Positions 5,847-31,931 of a DNA stretch of 42,372 nt are shown here, one piece after another; the stretch's first letter is position 1; each line of letters starts with the position of its first letter. The notes below the pieces were generated by a model. The model was given only the letters and a program-made list of their open reading frames with translations, made no database searches and was not told the origin of the DNA. The position numbers and the translations under genes were made by a program. Source of the stretch: Pseudomonadota bacterium (GTDB taxonomy: Bacteria > Desulfobacterota > Desulfobulbia > Desulfobulbales > JAGXFP01); contig JAHJAA010000029.1 in assembly GCA_018814305.1 (NCBI GenBank), forward strand, positions 1 to 42,372, read 5' to 3'.

Positions 5847-6853
5847 TCATCGCCATCGTCCATAATCACGTCAATTTGCAGGCGGCCCCCGATGCCAGGG
5901 ATGTGCTGGCCCAGGCCCAGGCCATAGCCGAGAGTCTGACCCGACTGGGACATACCCCGAGGCTTTTTTCCTGCGACCTGAACCTGGCAGCCGTCAAAAA
6001 GGATCTCCAGACGGCAAAACCGGACCTGGTCTTCAATCTGGTTGAGGACCTTGACGGCCAGGGCCGACTGATCCATCTCTTTCCCTTTCTGCTGGACACC
6101 ATGGGGCTTCGCTATACCGGGAGTCCGGCCGAGGTCCTATTGCTGAGCTCCCATAAGACCATGGCCAAGGAGATCATGGAGCGCAACGCCCTGCCGACCC
6201 CACAATGGAACGGGCCCTGGCCGGGCACCGCACCAGGTGAAAAAGACCTCCCCTCCAGGACCGGGCAAAAACGCTGGATCATCAAATCAGTCTGGGAGCA
6301 TGCCTCCCTTGGATTGGACGGTGATTCCATCGTGACCGTCGATTCTTCCGAACACCTGTGGGCCGAGTTGCGCTCCCGCTGCTCACGGCTGGGCGGGGCC
6401 TGCTTTGCCGAAGAGTTCATCGATGGCCGGGAATTCAATCTCTCCCTGATCGCCACCCAGGATGGAGTCGAGGTCCTCCCGCCGGCAGAAATCGTCTTTA
6501 CCGATTATCCCACCGGGATGGCCAAAATTGTCGATTATCAGGCCAAATGGGCCGAAGAAACCTTTGCCTATCAAAACACCAATCGTCGTTTTGAATTCGG
6601 TGGCGAAGACGACCTGCTGCTGGTCCAGCTCCGCCAAATCGCCCATCGCTGCTGGCAGACCTTCGGCTTATCCGGATACGCCAGGGTCGACTTCCGGGTT
6701 GACCTTTCCGGCAATCCCACTATCCTGGAAGTTAATGCCAATCCCTGTCTCTCCCCCGATGCCGGCTTTATTGCCGCCGCCGAACGGGCGGGACTCGGTT
6801 TTGACCAGGTCATTTCCAGAATTATTGCCGAATCCGACCAGGTCGGTCCATAA
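5843..6853 (+). CDS. ATP-grasp ligase, D-Ala-D-Ala ligase-like (second of two)
   Basis: This 336-residue protein is a diverged relative of its upstream neighbour. Visible features are 'VFNLVEDLDGQGRLIHLFPF', 'YTGSPAEVLLLSSHKTMAKE', a central ATP-grasp region containing IIKSVWEHASLGLDGDS, and the C-terminal metal/ATP site 'ARVDFRVDLSGNPTILEVNA' followed by NPCLSPDAGF. The start is GTG at 5843, overlapping the preceding stop by 4 nt, with AAGGA upstream. Two consecutive non-identical ATP-grasp enzymes suggest two successive amide-bond steps or a heteromeric ligase. No transport or regulatory domain is fused. The specific function is not recognised. Confidence 0.75.
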   Translation: MIIAIVHNHVNLQAAPDARDVLAQAQAIAESLTRLGHTPRLFSCDLNLAAVKKDLQTAKPDLVFNLVEDLDGQGRLIHLFPFLLDTMGLRYTGSPAEVLLLSSHKTMAKEIMERNALPTPQWNGPWPGTAPGEKDLPSRTGQKRWIIKSVWEHASLGLDGDSIVTVDSSEHLWAELRSRCSRLGGACFAEEFIDGREFNLSLIATQDGVEVLPPAEIVFTDYPTGMAKIVDYQAKWAEETFAYQNTNRRFEFGGEDDLLLVQLRQIAHRCWQTFGLSGYARVDFRVDLSGNPTILEVNANPCLSPDAGFIAAAERAGLGFDQVISRIIAESDQVGP

Positions 6854-6866
6854 CCCGGAGTCAAGA

Positions 6867-9149
6867 ATGTTACGCATCCGCCGCATCTATGATGACATCC
6901 TGCCGGTCAACCAGGAAACCCTGGCCCAGGTCAAGGCCATCCTGAAATCCCGGTTCAGCACTGTGTCCGAGGATGACATCGAGTCCATCGGGGAGAAACT
7001 GCGCAACCCCTTCAAGCAACGATTCCGCACTGTCCTGTTTGTTGCCGAAAGCATGAAGGGCAAGGTCCTTGGCTTTGCCATCCTGCTCCATGAACCGATC
7101 ATCGGTTTCGCCTATCTGGACTGGTTGGCCACCGCCACCGGCAGCAGTGGTGGCGGTCTTGGTGGAGCGCTCTACGAACGCATCCGCCAGGAGTCGGTGG
7201 GACTCAAAGTGAAGGGTTTGTTTTTTGAATGCCTGCCCGATGATGAGGCCAATTGCCCGGACAAAGCCCTGCTCAAAGAGAACCGGGCCAGGCTCAGGTT
7301 TTATGAACAGTACGGCGCTCGACCCATTATGAATACCGGCTATGAACTGCCGGTTAAAGAGGACGACACCTGTCTGCCCCATCTGGTTTACGACGGTCTG
7401 CTGGCCAACAAACCACCCCGACGGGTCTTCCTCCGCAAGGTGGTACGGGCCATTCTCGAACGCAAATATGCCGATTTCTGCCCCGCCACCTACGTTACCG
7501 AGGTAATCAAATCAATCAGCGATGACCCGGTCCTCATCCGGGAGTATCGCTATGTCAAGCCGGAGGCGGTGGTCAAAACAGTTGAAAGCAAGTCCTTTGA
7601 ACAGATTGCCCTGATCATCAATGACAAGCATGATATCCACCATGTCCATGACCGCGGGTATGTCGAATCTCCCGTCCGGATCAAGAGCATTCTGAAAGAG
7701 CTTGATAAAAGCGGGCTCTTTGCCACCATCAAACCCCACCCCTTCTCCGACCGCCACCTCCATGAGGTCCATGCTGGGGATTTTATCAGCTATCTCAAGA
7801 GGGCCTGCAACGATATGCCCGAAGGGAAGAGCCAGTACCCCTATGTCTTCCCCATCCGCAACAAGACCAGACCACCCAAGGAGCCCTCGGTCCTGGCCGG
7901 ATATTTCTGCATCGACACCTTCACCCCGATCAACAGAAATGCCTACCCGGCGGCCCGCAGGGCGGTTGACTGCGCCCTGACCGGCGCCCGTGAAGTCTTA
8001 AACGGCCGAAGGGTGGCCTACGCCCTGGTCCGGCCGCCTGGCCACCATGCCGAACATCGATTTTTCGGGGGCTTCTGTTATTTCAACAACAACGCCGTGG
8101 CCGCCCAGTATCTCAGCCAATACGGCAAGGTGGCGATTCTGGATGTTGATTACCATCACGGCAACGGTCAACAGGAGATCTTCTATGGTCGACCGGATGT
8201 ACTGACCATCTCACTCCACGGTCATCCCAGTTTTGCCTATCCCTATTTTTCCGGCTTTCCCGAAGAACAGGGCGAGGATGAAGGAGAGGGGTTTAATCTC
8301 AATCTGGCTTTACCCGAAAAGGTCGATGGCGAGATCTACCGAACCGCCCTGAAAAAGGCCCTGGAAAGAATCGAGACCTTCAATCCGGCCTTTCTGGTGG
8401 TGGCCCTGGGATTCGATACGGCCAAGGGCGATCCCACCGGGACCTGGAGTCTGCAGGCCCGCGATTTCAAGGCCAACGGCGAGGCCATCGGTGCCCTCGG
8501 TCTGCCCACGGTGATTGTCCAGGAGGGCGGCTATCGAACCCGCACCCTGGGCAAGAACGCCGGGGCCTTTTTCAATGGCTTAAGCGAGGCGGTCACTAAA
8601 TGGGCGACAGCCGGACGGAAGCCCAAAAGTCAAATCCACGGACTGGCTTCCAGGCAGGAGGTCGTTCCGGCCGATATCGAGCGCATCGGCAAACTTGTCG
8701 AAATTACCGGATTCTTCCATACCGAAGAGGTTGAGGTCGCCAAGGAATTGGTTGAAGAACGGCTGAACAAGGGTGATGCCAGCGGCTATCATTTTTTACT
8801 CCTCGAACATTACGGTCGCCTGGTGGGCTATACCTGTTTTGGGCTCATACCCTGCACCAGTTCAAGTTTCGACCTTTACTGGATCGTCGTCCATCCCGAT
8901 TATCAAGGCCGTGGGATAGGACAGCAACTCATGAAGGACACCGAACGGAAGATCAGGGCCATGGGGGGAAAACGCATCTATGTGGACACCTCCCAAAAAC
9001 CTCAGTATGCCAGCACCAGATCCTTTTATGAGCGTTGCAGCTACCTCCAGGAAACCCTGCTGGAGGATTTTTACGCCCCCGGTGACGGCAAGGTGATCTA
9101 CTGTAAAAAACTCCAGAGCGGGAGGAGCAAGCACCAAACAAATCCTTAA
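6867..9149 (+). CDS. Trifunctional GNAT / acetylpolyamine-amidohydrolase (HDAC-like) / GNAT fusion
   Basis: This is a 760-residue protein. Residues ~1-170 are GNAT-like ('LFVAESMKGKVLGFAILLHE', 'LDWLATATGSSGGGLGGALY'). Residues ~255-575 are a zinc-dependent deacetylase of the histone-deacetylase/acetylpolyamine amidohydrolase superfamily: general-base histidines H393-H394 in RPPGHHAEH, zinc ligands D428 and H430 in DVDYHHGNGQ and D522 in KGDPTG, and catalytic Y556 in QEGGYR. Residues ~600-750 are a second GNAT with the acetyl-CoA loop 'VVHPDYQGRGIGQQLMKD'. Adding and removing acetyl groups within one polypeptide is unusual. Next to kamA, a plausible role is acetylation and deacetylation of beta-lysine or a derived product, by analogy with the AblB acetyltransferase; this is inference. 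The start at 6867 has GGAG 7 nt upstream. The frame is also open upstream to 6462, but that part overlaps the ATP-grasp gene and lacks domain similarity. Confidence 0.85.
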   Translation: MLRIRRIYDDILPVNQETLAQVKAILKSRFSTVSEDDIESIGEKLRNPFKQRFRTVLFVAESMKGKVLGFAILLHEPIIGFAYLDWLATATGSSGGGLGGALYERIRQESVGLKVKGLFFECLPDDEANCPDKALLKENRARLRFYEQYGARPIMNTGYELPVKEDDTCLPHLVYDGLLANKPPRRVFLRKVVRAILERKYADFCPATYVTEVIKSISDDPVLIREYRYVKPEAVVKTVESKSFEQIALIINDKHDIHHVHDRGYVESPVRIKSILKELDKSGLFATIKPHPFSDRHLHEVHAGDFISYLKRACNDMPEGKSQYPYVFPIRNKTRPPKEPSVLAGYFCIDTFTPINRNAYPAARRAVDCALTGAREVLNGRRVAYALVRPPGHHAEHRFFGGFCYFNNNAVAAQYLSQYGKVAILDVDYHHGNGQQEIFYGRPDVLTISLHGHPSFAYPYFSGFPEEQGEDEGEGFNLNLALPEKVDGEIYRTALKKALERIETFNPAFLVVALGFDTAKGDPTGTWSLQARDFKANGEAIGALGLPTVIVQEGGYRTRTLGKNAGAFFNGLSEAVTKWATAGRKPKSQIHGLASRQEVVPADIERIGKLVEITGFFHTEEVEVAKELVEERLNKGDASGYHFLLLEHYGRLVGYTCFGLIPCTSSSFDLYWIVVHPDYQGRGIGQQLMKDTERKIRAMGGKRIYVDTSQKPQYASTRSFYERCSYLQETLLEDFYAPGDGKVIYCKKLQSGRSKHQTNP

Positions 9150-9423
9150 ACCCTGGGCCCGTTCAAAGGCCGCCGCATTTCTCTGTTATACTGTTTTTTA
9201 AAATTCTCCCCTTGAGGTGACTGCCTGGTCTGTATTGAATTATTGGAAGGACGTTATTTAGGTCCACACCCCGCAAACAGCGCCCAGGTTACACCCCACC
9301 CTTACCCCAATAAACTCCCCAGGCCAGGTCTGCCAACTCCATCCAGGAGCGACCCTGATTCGTGCGTCTAAAGCGCATAATAATCCAGGCCAAGGGAACT
9401 CTCTTATGACACTTTGAGGAACT

Positions 9424-10833
9424 ATGGAATTCTCACAATCCGCCATGCTTGCGGCCAATATGCATGAGTATCAGGATGACTATCAGCGGTTAAATTTCAT
9501 CACCGAAGAAGAAGGACGGGCAGCCACCCTCCTGCGCAGTGAACTTCTGGAAAAATTAGTCGCAACGGGTGCCAGCAGCATCTGCCAGGGCACCAAACTT
9601 CATACCGGGGAGCTCTCCCCGGGTTGCAGATCATGCACCAACGGCCGGTGGAGTTGCCTGTTTATCAATGGTCTGTGCAATGGTCGCTGCTTTTACTGCC
9701 CAACCACCCAGGACTCAAAATCCGAGCCGACCACCAACAATCTCCGCTTTGCCAACCCCCAGGACTATATTGATTATGTCCAACTCTTCGACTTCACCGG
9801 GGTCAGCATCAGCGGCGGAGAACCTTTGATGACCTATGACCGGACCCTGACCTATGTCACCAAGCTAAAGAAACGATTCGGCAACGCCATTCATCTGTGG
9901 ATGTACACCAACGGAATGCTCGCAACCGAAGAAAAAATCCGTTCCCTGGCCGATGCCGGGCTCGACGAGATTCGTTTTGATATCAGTGCCGACCGTTACG
10001 TGCTGGACAAGATCAAATTCGCCACCGGGCGGATTCCATGGATTACCGTAGAAATCCCGGCCATCCCGGAGGACTATCAACAGCTAAGGGCTCTCCTGCC
10101 CGCCCTGGCTGATGCCGGGGTCAACCACCTGAACCTCCATCAGTTGCGTTGCACCCCCCATAATCTGAACAATCTTACGGCCCGAAACTACCGCTTCAGC
10201 CACGGCCCCAGGATCCTGTCAATAGATTCAGAGCTCACCGCCCTGCGTTTGCTGTTCGATGCCGCCACCGGCCGGGCCCCGGCGGTAAATTACTGCTCCT
10301 ATGCCTACAAATATCGTTTTCAGAGCCGAGCCTCCCGACTACGGGTGGCCGCCAGGCTGGCCGACCCCTGTGAGGATATCACTGAAGCAGGCTTTATACG
10401 TCGACTTACTTTGACCGGCAGTGCCAAGCAAATCAGTGAATGCACCGCCCAGATCAACCGAAAAGGAATCACCTCCGGATTACAGCTTGAAAACCCGGGT
10501 CGCCTCAATTTCAACATCTCGCTCTGGCCTCACCTCGATTTTACCGGATGCACACTCCTGGTTAGTTATTACACACCACAGCTCAGGGAAAATGCCTCTT
10601 ACCGGGGTCGTACCTTGAAAGTGCCACTCAACCGCAAGCGCACTTTGATCGCTGAGCGAATCGGAACCGTGAACGGACGAGAAATTCCACCCGAAGAACG
10701 TTTGCTTTTTAAGACCCTCTTCCTGACAGAAAATCACCTGCTGATCCAAGGAGAGCATCCGGAACTCCTTGGCACCCTGGCTGACATCTATGAACTGGAG
10801 CGGTTGCCGGATGGCCTGCATCTTTACCAATAA
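9424..10833 (+). CDS. Radical SAM protein with N-terminal cysteine cluster
   Basis: This 469-residue radical SAM enzyme carries C85-x3-C89-x2-C92 (LCNGRCFYCP) for the SAM-binding [4Fe-4S] cluster and a clear GGEPL motif (SISGGEPLMTYDRT) of the AdoMet site. Four more cysteines lie just before it (C54, C68, C71, C78 in 'CRSCTNGRWSC') and could ligate an auxiliary cluster. The fold resembles pyruvate-formate-lyase-activase-type or peptide-modifying radical SAM proteins, but the C-terminal ~170 residues are not recognised. GAGGA lies 4 nt upstream of the start. It is about 270 bp downstream of the HDAC-fusion gene and 36 bp upstream of a YkgJ-like gene, so it forms a pair with the latter. Membership of the kamA pathway is possible but unproven. 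Confidence 0.75.
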   Translation: MEFSQSAMLAANMHEYQDDYQRLNFITEEEGRAATLLRSELLEKLVATGASSICQGTKLHTGELSPGCRSCTNGRWSCLFINGLCNGRCFYCPTTQDSKSEPTTNNLRFANPQDYIDYVQLFDFTGVSISGGEPLMTYDRTLTYVTKLKKRFGNAIHLWMYTNGMLATEEKIRSLADAGLDEIRFDISADRYVLDKIKFATGRIPWITVEIPAIPEDYQQLRALLPALADAGVNHLNLHQLRCTPHNLNNLTARNYRFSHGPRILSIDSELTALRLLFDAATGRAPAVNYCSYAYKYRFQSRASRLRVAARLADPCEDITEAGFIRRLTLTGSAKQISECTAQINRKGITSGLQLENPGRLNFNISLWPHLDFTGCTLLVSYYTPQLRENASYRGRTLKVPLNRKRTLIAERIGTVNGREIPPEERLLFKTLFLTENHLLIQGEHPELLGTLADIYELERLPDGLHLYQ

Positions 10834-10869
10834 CGAACTTTTTTATAAAAATTATCCTGGAGAATTTCG

Positions 10870-11361
10870 ATGAACTTGTGTGTGTTATGCGCCCAACGAG
10901 GAAATGCCTGCTGTGTCAACCGTGACATCCTGGTCACCAGCGCTGACCAGGAGCGAATCGCCGCTCATGTCGGCGAATCAACCTTTTTTGAATACCGGAA
11001 ACCGGCATCACCGGCATACCTGGATAATGACGATGACCCCAACTGGAATAGTATGACCGTTCAGGTTAACGGAGCAAGATTGGTACTGAAGCGTGGAATG
11101 ACCAAACGGTGTTATTTCCTGACCGGCCGGGGCTGCCGGCTGCCGGCAGCGGTCCGGCCCCTGATCTGCCGCCTGCACCCAGTGGAATATACCGAGACCG
11201 GGATAACCGGGCTCTCAGGAGAATGCCCCATTGAGTTACTTGCCCCTCCCACAAGCCTTCTTGAGAACCTGGGGATGAGTCTTGACCAGGCTGAATCATG
11301 GCGGAGTCAGCTCTACGAAGAACTGCGGCAGGATTTTAAAAAGAGAGAAAAGGTGGCGTGA
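10870..11361 (+). CDS. YkgJ-family cysteine cluster protein
   Basis: This 163-residue cytosolic protein has the cysteine pattern of the YkgJ/UPF0153 family: an N-terminal CVLCAQRGNACC, a central CYFLTGRGC, then ICRLHPVEY and a last cysteine in GECPIE. Family members are thought to bind an Fe-S or zinc centre and their biochemical role is largely unknown. GGAG precedes the ATG by 8 nt. The gene follows the radical SAM gene closely on the same strand, which suggests co-transcription and perhaps a role as an iron-sulfur partner. There is no signal peptide or membrane segment. Confidence 0.75.
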   Translation: MNLCVLCAQRGNACCVNRDILVTSADQERIAAHVGESTFFEYRKPASPAYLDNDDDPNWNSMTVQVNGARLVLKRGMTKRCYFLTGRGCRLPAAVRPLICRLHPVEYTETGITGLSGECPIELLAPPTSLLENLGMSLDQAESWRSQLYEELRQDFKKREKVA

Positions 11362-11464
11362 TCAAAGCTCCAGGCGCCTGACACCCCCCTGTTTGTGCTC
11401 ATTATTTTCGGAAGGTGCAGGCCGAAAAACTTCATCTAGAGAACTTTCCCAGTCAATCATGAGG

Positions 11465-11492
11465 GTTCGGATCAGGAGAACCTGATCCGAAC
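11465..11492. terminator. 12-bp perfect hairpin at the convergent ends of ykgJ-like and FHA genes
   Basis: GTTCGGATCAGG (11465-11476) pairs with CCTGATCCGAAC (11481-11492) around an AGAA loop. The stem covers the last codons and stop of the minus-strand FHA gene and lies ~100 bp after the plus-strand ykgJ-like stop. It may act as a bidirectional terminator, although there is no strong T-run on either side. Confidence 0.4.
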
Positions 11493-12182
11493 GCTGCCGA
11501 CCGTGATGATATCCAAGGGCTTAAGAAGTTTTTCCCGCATCAGTTTCTCCCCGTTCAAACAGGTCTTCCTGAAACCGCTACCGGGAGAGATGAGGTATCC
11601 TTTCTTGCGAAAGACGATGGAGAACTGAATTTTTCCCATCAGAAAACCGGACAGGATGAGGTTACAGGTTGGATCCTTGCCGGCTTTGACGTCTTGCCCA
11701 TGCAAGAGAAGTCTGGCTGGAGAGGCCTTGCCCGCCAGGACCGTTAATTGACGATTCAGGTTGGCCTCTTTTTTTTTGCGCAAATCGGTTTCATTAAAAA
11801 TACCGCTAACATACACGGTCCGATCACCCGCCTCTTCCGCATAATTACGGGCCACGGAAGCGGCCTCTTCCGACTTCTCTTCATCAGACAGGTCATCAGC
11901 CGGTTTCAAGGTAAACTTACCGATATTGAGCCGGTCCATTTTGCTGATTGGGGTGGAAGAACGAATCTTCTTCCGGTTCACCCTGGTGCCGTTCATACTG
12001 AGAAGATCGGCCAGATAGTACTGACCATCCCTCAACTCCAGGGTAGAATGTTTACGGGATACCGCCGTATTGGGGATGATCACGTCCGCCTCATTGTCGC
12101 GACCAATGACCAGACACTGCCCCTCATTGATGGTGAAATGCAGAATTACCCGTTTTTTGAACAAAATCACCCATTCTTCCAT
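11472..12182 (-). CDS. Double FHA-domain protein
   Basis: This 236-residue protein has two forkhead-associated (phosphothreonine-binding) modules. The first spans residues ~20-92 with canonical GR-x(14)-SRKH-x(18)-NGT spacing (IGRDNEADVIIPNTAVSRKH, then LSMNGTRVN). The second, more diverged, spans ~157-236 (AGKDPTCNLILSG, then TCLNGEKLMREKLLKPLDII). The linker (residues ~93-150) is acidic and charged, and contains RTVYVSG, which could be a phosphorylated threonine that the FHA domains recognise. There is no signal peptide. The start at 12182 was chosen because a strong AGGAGG lies 5 nt upstream; an upstream in-frame ATG lacks a site. FHA proteins act with Ser/Thr kinases or type VI secretion, and none is encoded nearby. 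It is divergent from tamB. Confidence 0.85.
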   Translation of the reverse strand: MEEWVILFKKRVILHFTINEGQCLVIGRDNEADVIIPNTAVSRKHSTLELRDGQYYLADLLSMNGTRVNRKKIRSSTPISKMDRLNIGKFTLKPADDLSDEEKSEEAASVARNYAEEAGDRTVYVSGIFNETDLRKKKEANLNRQLTVLAGKASPARLLLHGQDVKAGKDPTCNLILSGFLMGKIQFSIVFRKKGYLISPGSGFRKTCLNGEKLMREKLLKPLDIITVGSVRIRFS

Positions 12183-12457
12183 GGTGCCTCCTATGAACGA
12201 CAATGAGATCTATATTCATAATAGGCACACCAAGACGCTTTCGAGAAGAAATAAACGCAGAATTTCTGGCCCCCTTCTAAATCGGAGAAAACCATTACGA
12301 ATATCCCCAAATAGCGAAAGCACTTCCCGGGAGAGAATGATATGCTGGTGAAGACGCGCTACCCGATAAAATACATCATTGGAATTGACCAACCCGGACT
12401 CAAAAACCAAAGAAACAAAAGACCAGTATCCAGCGCCTGAAAAACAGTTGCCCAATA

Positions 12458-15400
12458 ATGAAAATCAAACTCTCAATTATCATTTTAGGATGTATTCTAG
12501 CGGCGACCGGAAGTATCTTCGGCCTTCGGGATAGAATCCTGCCACCCCTCATCGTCTCTGCAGTCCAGGCCAAACTTGGTATGGAGATCACTGTGGCTGC
12601 GGTGTCGGGTTCCTTTATTCGGGATCTGCGGATATCCGGGCTCCGGACAACCAGACCGGCTCCGGACGGTCCCCTCGTCTCAATTGGGGCCAACACCATC
12701 CAGGCCCGATATTCCCTTCCACTGCTTTTTCATGGCTTCGATTCCTTTCTCAGCGACCTCCGACTCGAACTTGATGGTGCCCGGGTGGAAATGGATTTCG
12801 CCCGAACCCAGGGACAAAACGCCACCCCCCCCTCACCTGCTTCAAACTTTTTGCTACCCATCATCCGGGCACAAAACACGCTCATTGATTTACAAGGACC
12901 GGAATGGTCGGTCTTACTTTCGGGCACCGACCTCACGGTGACATCTGCAAACCCTGGTCAAGGTGGAATCCCGGTAACAGTCCACGCCACCCAATCCAAA
13001 ATCAATATTCCAGCCCTGCATCCTTGGGCCGGGGAACTTTCCGCCATTGGCATTCTGAGCCGTTATGGTGTCGTCATCAACACCCTGACCAGCGACAACC
13101 ATCCGGTTATTTCCAAGGCCCACCTGACATACGGTCCCCAAGAACCATTCGGTTTCAACCTCTCATTTTCCGCCTTTAACGGCCATGGCACGGTCAACGG
13201 GACCCTCGAACCCGGGGACATGACCTTGGGCTGGGATATTCCGACCGTAGACCTCTCTAAAGTAACCCGGAGATTACGCACAACCCAACCGTTGCCCCAG
13301 GGAATTCTCACCAGCAGAGGGACCCTGAAAGGCAATTTTTCCGATCCCGCTTCCCTGAGCGGCGGGATCTCTCTCACCATCAACGAAGGTCTCTTCCGTG
13401 AAATCCCCTTCCAGCGATTCGCCATAACCGGGACTTCGGCGACCGGGATCCTCACGGTGGATTCCTTTGACCTCAAGATTGGAGAGAATAGCTTGACCGC
13501 CTCCAGGCTCTCAACTCCACAAGCAATGCTGGTCCCAGTGGATCTGGCAGGATTGGCTGCAAACAGCACCGGAGATTTCTCTGTTCGGTTGCAGAATCTC
13601 CCATCCCTGTTGCAGCTGCTCGGAATACCAGAAGAGAATCTTCCCGGTGATATCCCGGTCCACCGGATTCTCATCTCCGGGGCCGCCGATCATGGTGTCC
13701 TGCACATTAAGTCCTTATCAGCAACAATGCCCGGAAACGTCCTGTCCGCCTCCGGGGTGGAAACCCCTCTGGCCGCACTGGTCGATGGAAATACTGAGTC
13801 AACCATCGAAAACACCAAGGGCAGCTTCTCGGCCCGCCTGGAAGATATCCCTTCCCTGCTGCGCCTGGCTGGAATGCCTGCCGAACAGCTCCCCTCCGGC
13901 CTCCCCACCCACCGACTGGAGGTTACCGGCCAGGCCTCAAAGGACGGGATTATCCTGAAATCAGGAACCTTCAAGGGAGCTGACGCCACGGTGACCCTGC
14001 AGCGGTGCGAGATAACCCTGCCCAGCACCGGGCCATTACTCAAAGGCCTCGGCCTGATCGTCCGCCTGGTAGCGGATATCCCCGATCTCGACCGAATCGG
14101 GCCGATTATGGGCCTTACCGAAACCGGAGGCAGCCTCAAGGTCGCGATGAACCTGGAAGGAGCCCTTGGTGCCCCCAAGGGCTCCGTGGACATTACCGGC
14201 AACAATCTTCGCTACCGAAAAATCGCGGTCGATACCTTTTCCCTTGCAGCTCGATCCGGCTCAACAGGATGGCAGATCGAAACATTTGAGACGGCCAAGG
14301 GGAAAGACCATCTCTCCGGCCACGGGATCATGACCACAAATCCATTCCGTTTCAAGGATGCAACCCTTGATCTCCAGATTGATGATATCGGTCTCTATGA
14401 TCAGTGGTTCTCCATCGATGATGGACGTGTCCAACGGGGTAGTCTTTCCGCCCATCTGGAGGGAGCCGGAATTCCCTCCGCACTCGAAGGGAGTTTTACA
14501 GTCCACCTCGCCGATGCACTCATCTCCGGAGTTGCAATTTCTCAAGGGGATCTCACCGGCTCTCTGACCGGGGACTCTATTGATATCACATGGTTTTCGG
14601 CTGAAACCTCCGAGGGACAGGTCAGTCTTGCCGGCTCCTTTCTCCACCAGGCGTGGGGACTGCCGGTCAGCGGGACAATCCACCAACTGGACCTGGGTCG
14701 CGAGGGCCTGAAGCTTGTGTTGACAAACCCGGTCCCGGTTCAAATAGAGGGGGCCTCTTCTTGGTCTTTCGGTAAAGCCACCCTGAGGGGCGAGGCCGGG
14801 GAATTGATGATGAGTGGAGTCCTCTCTGCCCAGACAGGATATACGATCTCCGTAGAAGCCCGTGGAGTTGAAAGCGCCCCCCTCAAGCCATTCTTAAAAG
14901 AGCTGCCCATTGAGTTTCATGGACTCAACCTCTCCGGACAGATCTCCGGCAACGTAGATATGCCGGAAATTTCATTGGTCGGCTCGGTGAAGGAACTCCG
15001 GGCCCCCGGCGCCGATATCCCGTTGACCGGTCATCTTGAACTCTCCCTTTCATCTGGAGGTATCCTCCTCAAAACCTTTTCCTGGGAAACCGCCAACGGC
15101 GAACAGATTCTACTCTCCGGCACCCTTCCCTATGACCTTTTTACCAGAAAATTTATTCCGGGCAGCATAGAGCTCCAGAGTACCTTCACCGTTCCGGACC
15201 TGGTCACCTTCACGGCCTTTTTCCCCGAGAGATATCACGTCCCGGGGGCTCTAACCGGCACCGTAAATATCTCTGGAACCGCCGACCACCCTGAAGCGAT
15301 CTTTGATTTTAAAGCCACGAAAATCCGGTTTCCGGCCTGGTCTCCCCTGCACCCTCCCGGGGCAGTAACCATGCATGCCGCAGGATTCCTGAAAAACAAC

Positions 15401-16795
15401 ACCCTGCGTCTTTCGGCCCTGACCGCCGACAGTACCGAATTCAACATCTCCCTGTCCGGCGGCTGGGATGGGTTGGGAACCATACCCAAAAAACTCCCGG
15501 TGGCGGCAGAACTCCCCGGCTCCCTGGCCCTTACGGGAGCCTTTTCGTTCTCAGAACTCGGTTGGCTGGGAAAAAGCACCTCAGCGATCCGTCGACTCGG
15601 CGGCAACCTGGCCGGTACGCTCGCCGTTTCAGGACCGGCCGCCAACCCGGTAATTGCCGCTGAACTTACTCTTACCGATGGCGAACTTCGGCCCGATTCC
15701 TCAATGCCGGCGCTCCGAAATCTTCAAGTTCAAGTCCGCATAGACCACCGACTGGTAACCATCGATCACTTTGCCGGAACCGTCGGCGGCTCACCCTTTA
15801 CCGCCTCCGGTACGGTCAATATCCCGGCCCTGGGCGCTCCGCAAGCCGACCTCCAGATCCAAGGTTCCAATATTCTGCTCTACCGTAGTGAAGCGGTGGG
15901 AATCCGGGCCGATGCCGATATTATGATCCAAGGCACGATCACCGCTCCCGCCATCTCGGGTACAGTTGCCATCACCGATGGCCGCCTCCGCAAAAATATC
16001 AACTGGCTTGCCCCCCTCAAAGAACTGAGTCACGGCAAGCTCCCTCTTCTGGAAACTTCGAACAAGCCAACCACACCGGGAATCGGAATCTCATTTCCCA
16101 ACCCACCCCTACGCGATGCCACCTTCGACATCCATCTGGTGAGCAAAAATCCGTTTGTCGTTAGAAGTAACGTGGCCCGGGGCACCTTGCGACCAGATCT
16201 GAGATTGACTGGAACCGGTGAGATTCCAGTGTTAACCGGGCTTATCTATGTTGATCCCTCTCGAGTCCTCTTGCCGGCGGGAAGACTCAAGATCGAATCC
16301 GGCCTGATTCGTTTCCCTGAAAACGGCTCGGGGCGCCCGGTCTTGGAGATTAACGGATCAAGCCGCATCCTCGGATACGACATTAACCTTTCGGTGGAAG
16401 GACCATACGACGCACCCACCGTCACTCTGTCATCCGCCCCCCCCCTACCTCAGCATGCACTCCTGCTGCTGCTGCTCACCGGCAAAATCCCGGCTGGGGT
16501 TACCGATCAATCCGGGGGATGGCAGGGCGGGATGAAGATCGCCCTCTATGTAAGCAAAGGAATCATTGATGAGTGGTTCGGGGAGGACACTCTCGATGGG
16601 GGGGAATCGATGCTGGAACGACTCGATATCGTGGCCGGTCGAGGCATCAGCCGTCAGGGCAATGAGACCATCGGGGCCCAGTACCTAATGGCTGAGGGAG
16701 TCGTTCTGGAGAGGGATGAGTTATATCTGGTGGCCGAGCGGGATATCTACGATGAATTCAATGCGGGAGTACGGATTGTTTTCCAATTTAAATAA
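12458..16795 (+). CDS. tamB: TamB-like translocation/assembly module (DUF490) protein
   Basis: This 1445-residue protein has an N-terminal membrane anchor (IKLSIIILGCILAATGSIFG) followed by a long periplasmic stretch of beta-rich repeats. It ends in a C-terminal DUF490/TamB domain with the typical 'VRSNVARGTLRPDLRLTGTG' and 'DINLSVEGPYDAPTVTLSSA' segments and a closing aromatic strand ending in phenylalanine-lysine. TamB spans the periplasm and works with the Omp85 protein TamA in outer-membrane protein insertion or phospholipid transport. An internal duplication is visible around residues 370-415 and 453-498. The gene order is tamB then tamA, the reverse of Escherichia coli, and the two coding regions overlap. 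The start lacks a clear ribosome binding site. Confidence 0.88.
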   Translation: MKIKLSIIILGCILAATGSIFGLRDRILPPLIVSAVQAKLGMEITVAAVSGSFIRDLRISGLRTTRPAPDGPLVSIGANTIQARYSLPLLFHGFDSFLSDLRLELDGARVEMDFARTQGQNATPPSPASNFLLPIIRAQNTLIDLQGPEWSVLLSGTDLTVTSANPGQGGIPVTVHATQSKINIPALHPWAGELSAIGILSRYGVVINTLTSDNHPVISKAHLTYGPQEPFGFNLSFSAFNGHGTVNGTLEPGDMTLGWDIPTVDLSKVTRRLRTTQPLPQGILTSRGTLKGNFSDPASLSGGISLTINEGLFREIPFQRFAITGTSATGILTVDSFDLKIGENSLTASRLSTPQAMLVPVDLAGLAANSTGDFSVRLQNLPSLLQLLGIPEENLPGDIPVHRILISGAADHGVLHIKSLSATMPGNVLSASGVETPLAALVDGNTESTIENTKGSFSARLEDIPSLLRLAGMPAEQLPSGLPTHRLEVTGQASKDGIILKSGTFKGADATVTLQRCEITLPSTGPLLKGLGLIVRLVADIPDLDRIGPIMGLTETGGSLKVAMNLEGALGAPKGSVDITGNNLRYRKIAVDTFSLAARSGSTGWQIETFETAKGKDHLSGHGIMTTNPFRFKDATLDLQIDDIGLYDQWFSIDDGRVQRGSLSAHLEGAGIPSALEGSFTVHLADALISGVAISQGDLTGSLTGDSIDITWFSAETSEGQVSLAGSFLHQAWGLPVSGTIHQLDLGREGLKLVLTNPVPVQIEGASSWSFGKATLRGEAGELMMSGVLSAQTGYTISVEARGVESAPLKPFLKELPIEFHGLNLSGQISGNVDMPEISLVGSVKELRAPGADIPLTGHLELSLSSGGILLKTFSWETANGEQILLSGTLPYDLFTRKFIPGSIELQSTFTVPDLVTFTAFFPERYHVPGALTGTVNISGTADHPEAIFDFKATKIRFPAWSPLHPPGAVTMHAAGFLKNNTLRLSALTADSTEFNISLSGGWDGLGTIPKKLPVAAELPGSLALTGAFSFSELGWLGKSTSAIRRLGGNLAGTLAVSGPAANPVIAAELTLTDGELRPDSSMPALRNLQVQVRIDHRLVTIDHFAGTVGGSPFTASGTVNIPALGAPQADLQIQGSNILLYRSEAVGIRADADIMIQGTITAPAISGTVAITDGRLRKNINWLAPLKELSHGKLPLLETSNKPTTPGIGISFPNPPLRDATFDIHLVSKNPFVVRSNVARGTLRPDLRLTGTGEIPVLTGLIYVDPSRVLLPAGRLKIESGLIRFPENGSGRPVLEINGSSRILGYDINLSVEGPYDAPTVTLSSAPPLPQHALLLLLLTGKIPAGVTDQSGGWQGGMKIALYVSKGIIDEWFGEDTLDGGESMLERLDIVAGRGISRQGNETIGAQYLMAEGVVLERDELYLVAERDIYDEFNAGVRIVFQFK

Positions 16796-19167: not shown

Positions 19168-20148
19168 ATGATCTTCCCGGTCGGAGACAGCTCCCCAGTG
19201 CAGACACTCCACCATATCACCCATTCACGATTCCTGCGGCACGACACCGGCAGCGGGGAGCACCCTGAGACTCCGGCCCGTCTTGAGGTTATCAACCTCG
19301 CCCTGGGTGGTTGCCTTGATCGCCTCCACCTGGAAACCATCGCGCCTAAATCGGCACCCAGGACCAGCCTGCTCAGAATCCACAGTGAAAATTATCTGCT
19401 GCGCTTTGAGGAAACGGCCCTGGCCGGCCACAGTTATTTGAGCCATCCCGACAACCAGTTATGCTATGAAACCTATGAAATCGCCCTGCTCTCAGCTGGG
19501 GCTGGATTGGCTGGCATTACTCTGGCGGAAGAGACAACCGGCCCCATTTTCTGTAGTGTTCGGCCTCCCGGACATCACGCCGAGGTATCCCTGGCCCTGG
19601 GTTTCTGTTTTATCAACAATGTGGCGGTGGCGGCCAGGTACTGGCAGGAACACTACAACCGACGCCGGATTGCCATCATCGATTTCGATGCCCATCACGG
19701 CAACGGCATCCAGACCGCCTTCGAAGAAGATCCAGAGGTCTTCTACATCAGTATCCACGAACATCCGACTTTCAGCTTTCCCGGTACCGGTTTTGCCGAG
19801 GAATTCGGCACCGGACCGGGCTGGGGTGCCACCCTGAACATCCCGCTCCTGCCGGGAAAGGGCGACAATGAAGTCAAGGAGGCCTTTCTCCGCCAGATCA
19901 CCCCGGCCCTGGACCGTTTCCAGCCGGAGGCGCTGCTGGTGGCCGCCGGTTTCGATGGCCACCGCCTGGATGACATGTCCGGCCTGGCCTATACCACTGA
20001 ACTTTTCGGCTGGCTGGGTAGCACCATTGCTGAGTTGGCCCACCGTCACTGCCAAGGACGACTGGTCTCCATCCTCGAAGGCGGCTACCACCTGGAAACT
20101 TTAGGAGCATCGGTGCTGCAATATTGCCAAGGCCTTACAAAAAAATAA
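19168..20148 (+). CDS. acuC: AcuC/HDAC-like zinc-dependent protein deacetylase
   Basis: This 326-residue protein of the arginase/deacetylase superfamily has all the catalytic landmarks: HPETPARL near residues 32-39, H136-H137 in RPPGHHAEV, zinc ligands D174 and H176 in DFDAHHGNG, an acidic ligand around D268 in GFDGHRLDDMSG, and catalytic Y307 in LEGGYHLETL. The family removes acyl groups from lysines or acetylated amines; AcuC of Bacillus deacetylates acetyl-CoA synthetase. An AcuB-like CBS-ACT protein and two acyl-CoA enzymes, one with an acetyltransferase domain, lie immediately downstream, which supports an AcuC-type role. It is distinct from the deacetylase domain encoded at 6867-9149. 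No clear ribosome binding site precedes the ATG. Confidence 0.82.
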   Translation: MIFPVGDSSPVQTLHHITHSRFLRHDTGSGEHPETPARLEVINLALGGCLDRLHLETIAPKSAPRTSLLRIHSENYLLRFEETALAGHSYLSHPDNQLCYETYEIALLSAGAGLAGITLAEETTGPIFCSVRPPGHHAEVSLALGFCFINNVAVAARYWQEHYNRRRIAIIDFDAHHGNGIQTAFEEDPEVFYISIHEHPTFSFPGTGFAEEFGTGPGWGATLNIPLLPGKGDNEVKEAFLRQITPALDRFQPEALLVAAGFDGHRLDDMSGLAYTTELFGWLGSTIAELAHRHCQGRLVSILEGGYHLETLGASVLQYCQGLTKK

Positions 20149-23211: not shown

Positions 23212-25089
23212 ATGAGCCCAACCAAGACCAACCATACCGACCCCAACTGGCGGGAGAAATACCACGACATGCTGGCCACTCCGGCCCAGGCCGTCAAGAA
23301 AATCAAACCGGGTCAGCGGGTGTTCATCGGCACGGGTTGCGCCGAACCGGTGCCTCTGGTTCAGGCCTTGACCGACCGGGCCCATGAACTGACCGACGTT
23401 GAAATCATTCAACTCCTGGCCAAGGGAGATGCCCCCTATGCCAACCGGCAGTTGACCGACTGTTTCACGGTCAATAGTTTCTTCATCGGCACCGCCATCC
23501 GTGAGCATATCCAGGAAGGGCTGGGCGATTACACCCCAGTGCTGCTCTCCGACATCCCCCGGTTATTCTCTTCAGGGCAACTACCCCTGGACGTGGTCAT
23601 GATCCAGGTCACCCCACCCGATTCCAGGGGTTTGGTCAGCCTGGGCATTTCAGTGGACATCGTTAAAAGCGCCACCGAGAACGGTTCACTGGTCATCGCC
23701 CAGGTCAATTCCCAGATGCCGCGCACCCTGGGGGACAGCTTCATCGACATCTATGATCTGGACCTGTTGGTGGAGGTGAACATGCCGATCCTGGAACGGG
23801 AACAATCCGAAGCCACTCCAGAAACTCTGCAGATCGGCGAGCATATCGCCTCCTTGGTCGAGGACGGCTCCACTGTGGAATTCGGAATCGGCCGTATCCC
23901 CCATGCCGTGATCGACTTCTTGAAGGACAAAAAGGACCTGGGCATCCACACCGAACTGCTCACCGACTCGATCATTCCTTTAATCGAATCCGGGGCGGTG
24001 AACGGTCGGCGCAAGAGCAGCGACCGGGGCAAGATCGTCGGTACCTTCTGCATGGGCAGTCAGCGTCTGTACGACTTCATCGATGACAATCCGCTGTTCT
24101 GTTTCCGGCCCACCGAGTACGTAAACGACTCACATGTGATCAGCCGCCAGTTCAAAATGGTGGCCATCAACATGGCGCTTGAGGTGGACCTGACCGGCCA
24201 GGTCTGTGCCGATTCCCTGGGCTCTCATTTTTTCTCCGGCATCGGCGGTCAGGTTGATTTTAATCGGGGCGCCGCCCGCAGCACTGGCGGCAAGGCGATA
24301 ATCGCCCTGGAATCAACCGCCAAACACGGTGAGATTTCACGGATCGTCACCCAGCTCACCCCGGGCGCAGGCGTCGTAACAACCAGAGGAGAAGTCCACT
24401 ATATAGTCACCGAATTCGGTATCGCCTACCTCCACGGCAAGTCGGTCCAGGAAAGAGCCATGGCCTTGATCAGCATCGCCCATCCAAAATTCCGAGAGCA
24501 ACTGCTCCGTGAAGCCATCGAGATCCATTATCTACGCAAGGAAATGACCGAGGTGGAAGGACACTTCATGGTCGCCGCCCAGGAGATGAAGACCACGATG
24601 CTCTTAGACGATGGAACCCAGGTGACCTTCCGACCGGTCCATCCAACGGATGAGCACAGCATGCGAGACCTGGTTTACGCCCTGTCCCAGGAGACCCTCT
24701 ACTATCGGTTCATGACCCATAAACCCAAGTTCAGTCACAGCCAGATCCAGAATTTCGTCTACATCGACCATCGCCGGGACGTGGCCATCGTCGGCACCGT
24801 CCCCGAGGCCCACGGCGAGGACATCGTCTCGGTGGGCCGCTACTATCTGGACCCCAAGACCAACCGGGCCGAGGTGGCCTTCGTCATCCGTGACGACTGG
24901 CAGAACCGGGGGATAGGCAAGTTCCTCTTCCGCCACCTGGTTAATCTGGCCAAACGAAGCGGCATCGCTGGCTTCGACGCCGAGGTCTTGAAGGACAACC
25001 GGCGCATGCAGACCATCTTCAACCACTCCGGGTTCCGGGTCAAAAGCCGGCTTGAGGAAGACGTTTACAGCTTTCAAATTGATTTATAA
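23212..25089 (+). CDS. Acetyl-CoA hydrolase/CoA-transferase with C-terminal GNAT domain
   Basis: This 625-residue two-part protein has an acetyl-CoA hydrolase/4-hydroxybutyrate CoA-transferase domain at residues ~15-440 ('FIGTGCAEPVPLVQALTDRA', 'MIQVTPPDSRGLVSLGISVD', 'FFSGIGGQVDFNRGAARSTG', 'YIVTEFGIAYLHGKSVQERA'), which moves CoA between acyl groups and acids. Residues ~465-620 form a GNAT acetyltransferase with the acetyl-CoA loop 'VIRDDWQNRGIGKFLFRHLV'. This GNAT resembles the C-terminal GNAT of PatZ/Pka protein acetyltransferases, which is normally fused to an ADP-forming acyl-CoA synthetase like the one encoded upstream. Together with the AcuC-like deacetylase and AcuB-like sensor, this suggests a protein-acetylation circuit controlling acetyl-CoA enzymes. 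The substrate acyl group is unknown. The leader has copy B of the 38-bp element. Confidence 0.88.
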   Translation: MSPTKTNHTDPNWREKYHDMLATPAQAVKKIKPGQRVFIGTGCAEPVPLVQALTDRAHELTDVEIIQLLAKGDAPYANRQLTDCFTVNSFFIGTAIREHIQEGLGDYTPVLLSDIPRLFSSGQLPLDVVMIQVTPPDSRGLVSLGISVDIVKSATENGSLVIAQVNSQMPRTLGDSFIDIYDLDLLVEVNMPILEREQSEATPETLQIGEHIASLVEDGSTVEFGIGRIPHAVIDFLKDKKDLGIHTELLTDSIIPLIESGAVNGRRKSSDRGKIVGTFCMGSQRLYDFIDDNPLFCFRPTEYVNDSHVISRQFKMVAINMALEVDLTGQVCADSLGSHFFSGIGGQVDFNRGAARSTGGKAIIALESTAKHGEISRIVTQLTPGAGVVTTRGEVHYIVTEFGIAYLHGKSVQERAMALISIAHPKFREQLLREAIEIHYLRKEMTEVEGHFMVAAQEMKTTMLLDDGTQVTFRPVHPTDEHSMRDLVYALSQETLYYRFMTHKPKFSHSQIQNFVYIDHRRDVAIVGTVPEAHGEDIVSVGRYYLDPKTNRAEVAFVIRDDWQNRGIGKFLFRHLVNLAKRSGIAGFDAEVLKDNRRMQTIFNHSGFRVKSRLEEDVYSFQIDL

Positions 25090-26088: not shown

Positions 26089-28095
26089 TCAACCAACCAG
26101 TACTTTACGAAGTAATTGTGCAATACCGTTCTTAGTCAAAGGTTTCATGGCAAACTCCTTGATACCGAAAGACTTCGCTGAAACCTCATCAATCAGATTA
26201 CTATAACCGGTGCAAAGGATAATCGGAATGTCGGGTCGAATCTGCAGCATCCTGCGGGCTAAATCCGCGCCAGTCATCCCCGGCATGGTCTGATCGGTTA
26301 TGACGACGTCAAAGTCGGCAGGATTATTCTGAAAGGTGTTCAAAGCCTCAAGACTGTTGTGCCGAACGGTGACGGTATACCCAAGTCGAGTCAACATTTC
26401 CTGGCCCAGGTTGGCCAGTAATTCCTCATCATCAATAAAGAGCACCCGCCCCTTACCCATGGGAATATCTTCATCCTCTTTGTCAACCGGTAGAGCGTTC
26501 TGGTCAATGACCGGAAAAAACACATGGAAGGACGAACCCTTACCGAGTCGACTCTCCACAGTTATGCATCCACCGTAACTGTTGATGATCCCATGGATAA
26601 TTGACAACCCCATACCCGTTCCCTTCCCAAAATCCTTGGTGGTAAAATACGGATCGAAAATTTTATCGATCACATCCGGTCCGATTCCTGAACCGGTGTC
26701 GGTAACAACTAATTCAACATACTCACCAGGTTCAAGATAAATTTCCGCAGGATGATCTCTCGATACATTGTCAAATCTCTTTAACTCAACCGTTAAAACC
26801 CCACCGGACTTTTCCATGGCATGGTTGGCATTGGTGGCAAGATTCATCAAGATCTGATGGACCTGGGTCGGGTCAACCAGAACAACTCCGCATCGAGAGT
26901 CAATATTGTCCCGGATTTCAATGGTGGTCGGCAAGGAGGAGCGCAACATTTTCAAGGTTTCTTTGACCAGCGACTGTAACTGCATAGGTATGCGTTCGAT
27001 CGCCGTCTGCCGGCTAAAAGCAAGAATTTGCTTTACAAGTTCCTTGGCGCGATTCGCCGCCTCCAGGACCTTCTCCAGATCACTGGCTAATTCCGATTTT
27101 TCCGGGGCATTATCCATGGCCATGGCGGTATAGCCAAAAATGACCCCAAGTATATTATTAAAATCATGGGCGATACCTCCCGCCAAGGTTCCGATGGCTT
27201 CCATCTTTTCGGCATGCTGAAGACGCATCTCCAAATTGGCCTTGTCTTCTTCAGACTTTTTAATATCGGTGATATTTCGGGAAATACCGATAAGACCTAT
27301 AATCTTTCCATCCTCATCACGGTAGGGACTTTTATTGGCGAGCCAGATCGATTCACCAGAGGCAGTTTCTAGCCTCTCTTCCACCAACAGAGTCTTCCCG
27401 GACTCAAGAACACTCGAATCAACTTGATTAATAATCTTTGCCGAAGATGATGGAAAAACCTCGCGGTCCTCTTTGCCGATGACTTCCTCTATCGATTTAC
27501 CGATCGCTCCAAGAGTGGCTTTGTTCGCCAGAAGGTATCGACCCTCCAAATCCTTTAAAAATATGGCATCGGTTGTCCCTTCGATAATCGCATTCAACAA
27601 CATATTACTGCCCTGGAGTTGACTCTCAGCAACTTTACGTCTGCTATTTTCAGAAATCAATTCCTGAACTTGTGTTTTCAGTTTTTGGTTTAATACATCT
27701 ATCTCTTGATAAGCCTTTCGAATGCTGGGCAAGGCAAGGAGTTTCGGCATCAATGGAATGATCATAACTGCTGTAATGATCGAAATAATGGCATTAACCG
27801 TTTTGATTACACCCTCCGTCCAATAAGATGGATAATAAACGGTCCAGGCTGCCATGAGATGCGTTGTGCCGCACGACAAAATAAAGAGACCAAACATCAA
27901 AAAAATCCAGAAATAAGGAAGGTCCCGTCGCTTGAAAACAAAATAAAACAGAGTTGCGGATATGAAATAATAGGCTATACCGGTCGCAATATCGGACCCG
28001 ACATGTTCCCAAAGCAATGAAGTATCCCAAACAAGACACTCTCCATGCGCCATATATTCTGTCGATTCATAGAGCTTTTTAAAATAATCAAACAT
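26089..28095 (-). CDS. Hybrid histidine kinase with ETR1-like ethylene-binding membrane domain
   Basis: This 668-residue protein has three N-terminal membrane helices (residues ~33-120) that align without gaps to plant ETR1. D35, Y42, I72, C75 and H79 correspond to ETR1 D25, Y32, I62, C65 and H69, the residues of the copper/ethylene site (SDIATGIAYYF, then LFILSCGTTHLMAAWT). A coiled coil follows (~125-160), then a PAS domain (~165-280), a HisKA domain with phosphorylated H310 (GGIAHDFNN), an ATPase domain (VVTDTGSGIGPD, GKGTGMGLSI) and a C-terminal receiver with D601 (VITDQTMPG). It could sense ethylene or another copper-bound small ligand. The start ATG at 28095 was preferred over an upstream GTG (28104) because AAAGGG lies ~8 nt before it. 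No response regulator is adjacent. Confidence 0.85.
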   Translation of the reverse strand: MFDYFKKLYESTEYMAHGECLVWDTSLLWEHVGSDIATGIAYYFISATLFYFVFKRRDLPYFWIFLMFGLFILSCGTTHLMAAWTVYYPSYWTEGVIKTVNAIISIITAVMIIPLMPKLLALPSIRKAYQEIDVLNQKLKTQVQELISENSRRKVAESQLQGSNMLLNAIIEGTTDAIFLKDLEGRYLLANKATLGAIGKSIEEVIGKEDREVFPSSSAKIINQVDSSVLESGKTLLVEERLETASGESIWLANKSPYRDEDGKIIGLIGISRNITDIKKSEEDKANLEMRLQHAEKMEAIGTLAGGIAHDFNNILGVIFGYTAMAMDNAPEKSELASDLEKVLEAANRAKELVKQILAFSRQTAIERIPMQLQSLVKETLKMLRSSLPTTIEIRDNIDSRCGVVLVDPTQVHQILMNLATNANHAMEKSGGVLTVELKRFDNVSRDHPAEIYLEPGEYVELVVTDTGSGIGPDVIDKIFDPYFTTKDFGKGTGMGLSIIHGIINSYGGCITVESRLGKGSSFHVFFPVIDQNALPVDKEDEDIPMGKGRVLFIDDEELLANLGQEMLTRLGYTVTVRHNSLEALNTFQNNPADFDVVITDQTMPGMTGADLARRMLQIRPDIPIILCTGYSNLIDEVSAKSFGIKEFAMKPLTKNGIAQLLRKVLVG

Positions 28096-28223
28096 TGGAA
28101 GCACCCTTTCCCTAATGATTTAAGGCAACTTTATCTCTCAATGCGCTTCTCTATCCAGCGTACCAAAGTTAGCAGAATACCCTTCGAACATGGTGGAACT
28201 AGAATATAAATAAAAGGAATGAC

Positions 28224-31265: not shown

Positions 31266-31493
31266 TTAAATAATGATCCAAGGTGCCCCTTTCCAAATCC
31301 CTTCCATATACATAATACAGATAGAAAAAATCTGCGGCAAAGAATTGACTAAACAGGATATATTGGACTACATTAATCCTGTTTAAGCTTGACCTGAGCA
31401 GCCTGATTTTTAAGACATTCAGGGAAATATCGATGGTGCCGGAATCATCCCGCCCATCGTAACAGCAGATAAGAAGAGATGTGGAGCCCAGCC

Positions 31494-31931
31494 ATGCCGT
31501 TTATTGAGTGGAATAATGACTTCAGTGTCAACAACGTAGAAATCGACAATCAGCATAAACACTGGATTTGTATTATAAATAGTCTTCATCAGGTACTGAT
31601 GATCGAGGGCAATGGAAATATAAAGGAAAAGGTGACGGGTGCCCTTGTGGAAATGAATACCTATACCCGGCGCCATTTTGCTTATGAAGAGATGTGCATG
31701 CGCCGGGTGGATTACCCTGGGACCATTGAACATATCAAACTCCATAACGCCTTTGCCGCCCAAATTACCAGGTACCTGTCAAAGATATATTCTGGTGAAC
31801 TGGTCATGGGTACGGAGGTCATGGCCAGGTTGAATTCCTGGCTTCGCGATCACATCCTGATCGAAGACCAGAAGTACTGCTCATACCTCGCTGAAAATAA
31901 AGACAAATTGACTGGCCTCAGCTTTGATTAA
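31494..31931 (+). CDS. Bacteriohemerythrin
   Basis: This 145-residue single-domain, non-heme diiron O2-binding protein has all ligand motifs: H in IDNQHKHW, HF..E in RRHFAYEEM, HIKLH in the third helix, and LRDHILIEDQKY at the C-terminal helix. Such proteins in anaerobes bind oxygen for sensing, scavenging or delivery. The start at 31494 gives the canonical MPFIEWNNDFSV beginning; the in-frame ATG at 31479 would add five residues. GGAG lies 9 nt upstream of 31494. It is monocistronic. Confidence 0.92.
   Translation: MPFIEWNNDFSVNNVEIDNQHKHWICIINSLHQVLMIEGNGNIKEKVTGALVEMNTYTRRHFAYEEMCMRRVDYPGTIEHIKLHNAFAAQITRYLSKIYSGELVMGTEVMARLNSWLRDHILIEDQKYCSYLAENKDKLTGLSFD

Follow-up and report, generated by a model that had tools for sequence, protein, structure and literature searches.

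The window, by which we mean the whole stretch of 42,372 nucleotides of Desulfobulbales DNA that was analysed, encodes a bacterial hybrid histidine kinase whose membrane sensor belongs to the ethylene-receptor family, an assignment that is well supported. On balance, we favour the explanation that this kinase senses a small pi-ligand via Cu(I). Judged from sequence, a lineage-specific change at the position of the pocket residue P36 of Arabidopsis ETR1 is the one unusual point of an otherwise known sensor family.

The full minus-strand open reading frame covers 26089-28104 and can begin at either of two candidate starts, GTG (28104) or ATG (28095). The alignment with relatives begins at the ATG, which is the favoured start and gives a protein of 668 aa, so that the coordinates 26089-28095 proposed by an earlier sequence-only reading were right. 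Its proposal of an ETR1-like domain on a bacterial hybrid kinase was borne out as well: the ETR1_N family (PF25487) matched residues 30-125, numbered from the GTG, scoring 118.6 bits where the cut-off is 27 (E 1.5e-34), far beyond chance. Its label of an anaerobe fits the order Desulfobulbales, which is mostly anaerobic. The Pfam search placed PAS, HisKA, HATPase and receiver domains after ETR1_N, and Pfam matches and motifs together revealed the HisKA histidine, the HATPase boxes and the receiver aspartate and lysine of a hybrid histidine kinase (Table 1).

Table 1. Positions of the kinase gene and its features in the window
Feature	Coordinates	Strand	Basis
Hybrid sensor histidine kinase, 668 aa: ETR1_N membrane domain, PAS, HisKA, HATPase_c, receiver	26089..28095	(-)	ORF, start and Pfam domains
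ETR1_N (PF25487), three predicted membrane helices; D35, Y42, I45, I72, C75, H79 and K98 kept; S46 replaces ETR1 P36	27730..28017	(-)	Family match, residue tables, AlphaFold2 model
Codon for S46, position of ETR1 Pro36	27958..27960	(-)	Derived from start 28095 and alignment
HisKA phospho-acceptor motif AHDFNN, residues 309-314 (His310, numbered from ATG)	27154..27171	(-)	Pfam and motif
Receiver domain, phospho-acceptor Asp601 (VITDQT; numbered from ATG)	26110..26445	(-)	Pfam and motif

An AlphaFold2 monomer model of the sensor, built from 10 sequences (mean pLDDT 78.8, pTM 0.53), contains helices at residues 25-55, 62-87 and 91-120, and then a C-terminal coiled-coil-like helix at 125-159. This arrangement of three N-terminal membrane helices and a signalling coiled coil agrees with the layout of the ETR1 sensor. 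The copper site in the ETR1 model lies in the dimer interface (PMC6586836), whereas the present model is a monomer. A Foldseek search of this model against the PDB returned nothing at E 0.001, and a PDB sequence search with the window protein returned chance antibody matches only, which left no solved structure of a relative for comparison.

By alignment, D35, Y42, I45, I72, C75, H79 and K98 of the window protein correspond to D25, Y32, I35, I62, C65, H69 and K91 of ETR1. The full set of essential ETR1 residues, completed with residues reportedly identified by Wang et al. 2006, we take to be D25, Y32, I35, P36, I62, C65 and H69. I35, P36, I62, C65 and H69 are reported among seven residues essential for ethylene binding by ETR1 (PMC6586836), and the count of seven is given also in PMC11819568, in which K91 is linked to output. 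The copper ligands Cys65 and His69, with Asp25, are all present, as C75, H79 and D35. The sequence-only reading had placed D35, Y42, I72, C75 and H79 on the ETR1 site without gaps at a constant offset of 10. This holds for the five residues named, but the choice was selective, as two of the essential seven went unmentioned: I35, which is kept as I45, and P36, which is changed to S46. Because the window protein possesses six of the seven, it should not be called a proven ethylene receptor.

We read the P36 column in 29 full-length gene copies. In the Desulfobulbales clade formed by the window protein, G012 and nine genomes of the related genus g31 (L010, L011, L013, L014, L015 and L057-L060), proline was found in none of the 11 copies; alanine occupies the position in ten and serine in one, that of the window. 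Among the 18 other bacterial copies, a small and largely plasmid-borne sample, 17 carry proline (two each from G210 and Rhodovastum, and one each from G458, G654, G647, G387, G539, Kovacikia, Azospirillum, Eleftheria, Acaryochloris, Pseudanabaena, Novosphingobium, Rhizobium and Blastomonas), so that proline is present both in Azospirillum brasilense and in a second Desulfobulbales family (G539, L061). The single exception, from Deinococcus, has alanine. The Ala/Ser group was joined in the tree at 99/99, with the long-branched Deinococcus copy drawn inside it at an unreliable placement. The Deinococcus domain with alanine at the P36 position is a distant, ETR1_N-like one at 3001-3276 of L049, a Deinococcus aquaticus plasmid. 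The L016 match (G086), sub-threshold and covering about half of the profile, was set aside because it is not a full domain. Within the Ala/Ser clade, the six other site residues and K98 are invariant while mean column identity is 79%, indicating that the site is under selection.

For the mechanism, we propose that one Cu(I) per subunit would be held within the three membrane helices by Cys75 and His79, with Asp35 fixing its position. The ligand would be a small, uncharged pi-ligand that arrives at the copper through the membrane, with ethylene as the first candidate and acetylene or CO as alternatives. Its binding would alter helix packing, and thereby the coiled coil and the PAS domain, so that autophosphorylation at His310 and transfer to Asp601 would be changed; from Asp601, an unlinked phosphotransfer protein and a regulator would carry the signal onward. 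The direction of the response and its downstream target we only infer. Copper binding by the domain is, from its residues, quite probable. No full-length relative of the clade shows a change in the Cu(I)-site residues. Ethylene binding, however, is less secure than the sequence-only reading implied, because the clade has lost P36, which is essential in ETR1. The hedge in that reading, that the protein could respond to ethylene or to another ligand of Cu(I), was therefore reasonable. With the pocket proline substituted, we lowered this claim, and ethylene as the physiological ligand appears plausible but a little short of an even bet.

The same substitution could mean that Cu(I) is still bound in a pocket retuned by the change of P36 to Ala or Ser, the natural ligand being CO, acetylene, a sulfur compound or copper itself rather than ethylene. 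We regard this as possible but doubtful. The replacement of P36 in all clade members beside six invariant site residues, its confinement to one clade while another Desulfobulbales family keeps proline, and the reported requirement for P36 in ethylene binding by ETR1 (PMC6586836) are consistent with it. However, the essential residues were defined by substitutions in a plant protein, a different sequence background may tolerate Ala or Ser, and the ligands proposed are putative. That loss of the pocket proline has turned the copper site of the ethylene receptor, in this Desulfobulbales clade, to the sensing of a different Cu(I) ligand, for example CO or acetylene, is in our view unlikely; if true, the site would be a naturally occurring variant of the ethylene receptor with altered specificity. 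Because the clade keeps six of the seven binding residues and has a fixed change at the remaining one, it provides a ready test of the residues that set ethylene affinity rather than copper binding.

The domain might instead be a membrane anchor only, its ligand function lost and sensing left to the cytoplasmic PAS domain, as the absence of one essential residue and the close kinship of the kinase part to that of a paralogue with a different sensor would allow, but drift would not keep the six copper-site residues and K98 invariant across the clade, which makes this quite unlikely. The paralogue, L002, lies elsewhere in the same genome and is 59% identical to the PAS-kinase-receiver part of the window protein (residues 152-669). 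Its sensor has, by inspection, a solute-binding-like periplasmic part, a difference that we read as domain shuffling.

To return to the favoured Cu(I)-dependent sensing of a pi-ligand, the genome was searched for a source of ethylene and for copper handling. Nitrogenase-like PF00148 gave no match in the window genome while four control genomes were positive. Ethylene made by the cell itself, via nitrogenase (acetylene reduction) or methylthio-alkane reductase, was thus rejected, and any ethylene that is sensed would have to be external or produced in some other way. PF13486, a marker for ethene from reductive dehalogenation, also gave no match in the genome, in a search run without a positive control. 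Three Cu-type P-ATPases are encoded, indicating that the cell handles copper, although this evidence is weak because every one of the 14 control genomes has such matches. In sulfidic habitats, copper is scarce, which, like the lack of a nitrogenase-like enzyme, speaks against the favoured explanation.

ETR1_N is present as a single copy in the window's own genome (4.15 Mb, 96.7% complete) and in none of the four other genomes of its family. Counting the window genome, it exceeded the cut-off in 7 of 96 genomes of near relatives, in 12 of 258 from the class and in 4 of 395 drawn evenly from the phylum; for the class to which G210 belongs, a count without the window genome, the figure was 4 of 63. 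This patchy distribution fits horizontal gain or repeated loss.

Bacterial ethylene receptors are already known, and the functional work that we found covers cyanobacteria and plant-associated bacteria; in the open-access literature, we found no study of an ethylene receptor or ethylene-binding kinase in Deltaproteobacteria, Desulfo- or sulfate-reducing bacteria. AzoEtr1 of Azospirillum brasilense, which binds ethylene and signals (PMC11819568), shares with the window protein ETR1_N, PAS and histidine kinase parts and the numbering D35, C75, H79 and K98, and the A. brasilense copies are 45-47% identical to it over the ETR1_N domain. Unlike the window protein, AzoEtr1 has all seven essential residues including the proline, lacks a receiver domain and has proven ethylene binding. 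The three-helix sensor, the Cys and His of the copper site, the kinase and the receiver are also shared with Arabidopsis ETR1, in which, however, GAF stands in place of PAS, P36 is present and the downstream pathway is eukaryotic. Synechocystis SynEtr1 is likewise a bacterial ethylene-receptor-family protein with histidine kinase signalling, but it is also a light receptor and a proven ethylene binder (PMC11819568). The g31 and G012 EBD hybrid kinases (L010-L015, L024-L032 and L057-L060) belong to the same clade and have the same P36 loss; among whole proteins scanned, the EBD-PAS-HK-receiver order is common to the window protein, L017 and L022.

An HlyD, ABC ATPase and ABC-2 permease set lies upstream of the kinase on the same strand, with 128 bases between its end and the ATG; downstream is an endonuclease IV-like gene of the AP-endonuclease-2 family. 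Neither was found near the kinase in G012 or g31, and a conserved operon with the upstream ABC export genes was rejected, as the relatives did not show that arrangement. No obvious ethylene- or copper-related gene adjoins the window kinase, a further point against the favoured explanation. In several g31 genomes the setting differs: at five loci (L022, L026, L027, L028 and L030) a conserved protein follows the ETR1_N kinase on the same strand. In L022, where this neighbourhood covers 8408-16423, it is a PAS-GGDEF-EAL-receiver protein, after which come a histidine kinase, a response regulator and a regulator with receiver and HD domains. Such a partner is absent beside the window gene and has no full-length counterpart in its genome. 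From the g31 neighbourhoods, a link of ETR1_N sensors to cyclic-di-GMP is possible, and would fit the reported effect of ethylene on biofilms in Synechocystis and Azospirillum (PMC11819568).

Searches for Rfam families and tRNAs found none in the window. Just past the ABC export genes, at 31479-31931 (+), lies a gene for a stand-alone protein with a hemerythrin domain (PF01814). Of the proteins encoded at 6462-9149 (+), 19168-20148 (+) and 23212-25089 (+), two belong to the histone-deacetylase family, the first of them carrying a fused GNAT acetyltransferase domain, and one is an acetyl-CoA hydrolase/transferase with a GNAT fusion. Their occurrence together suggests control of protein acetylation.
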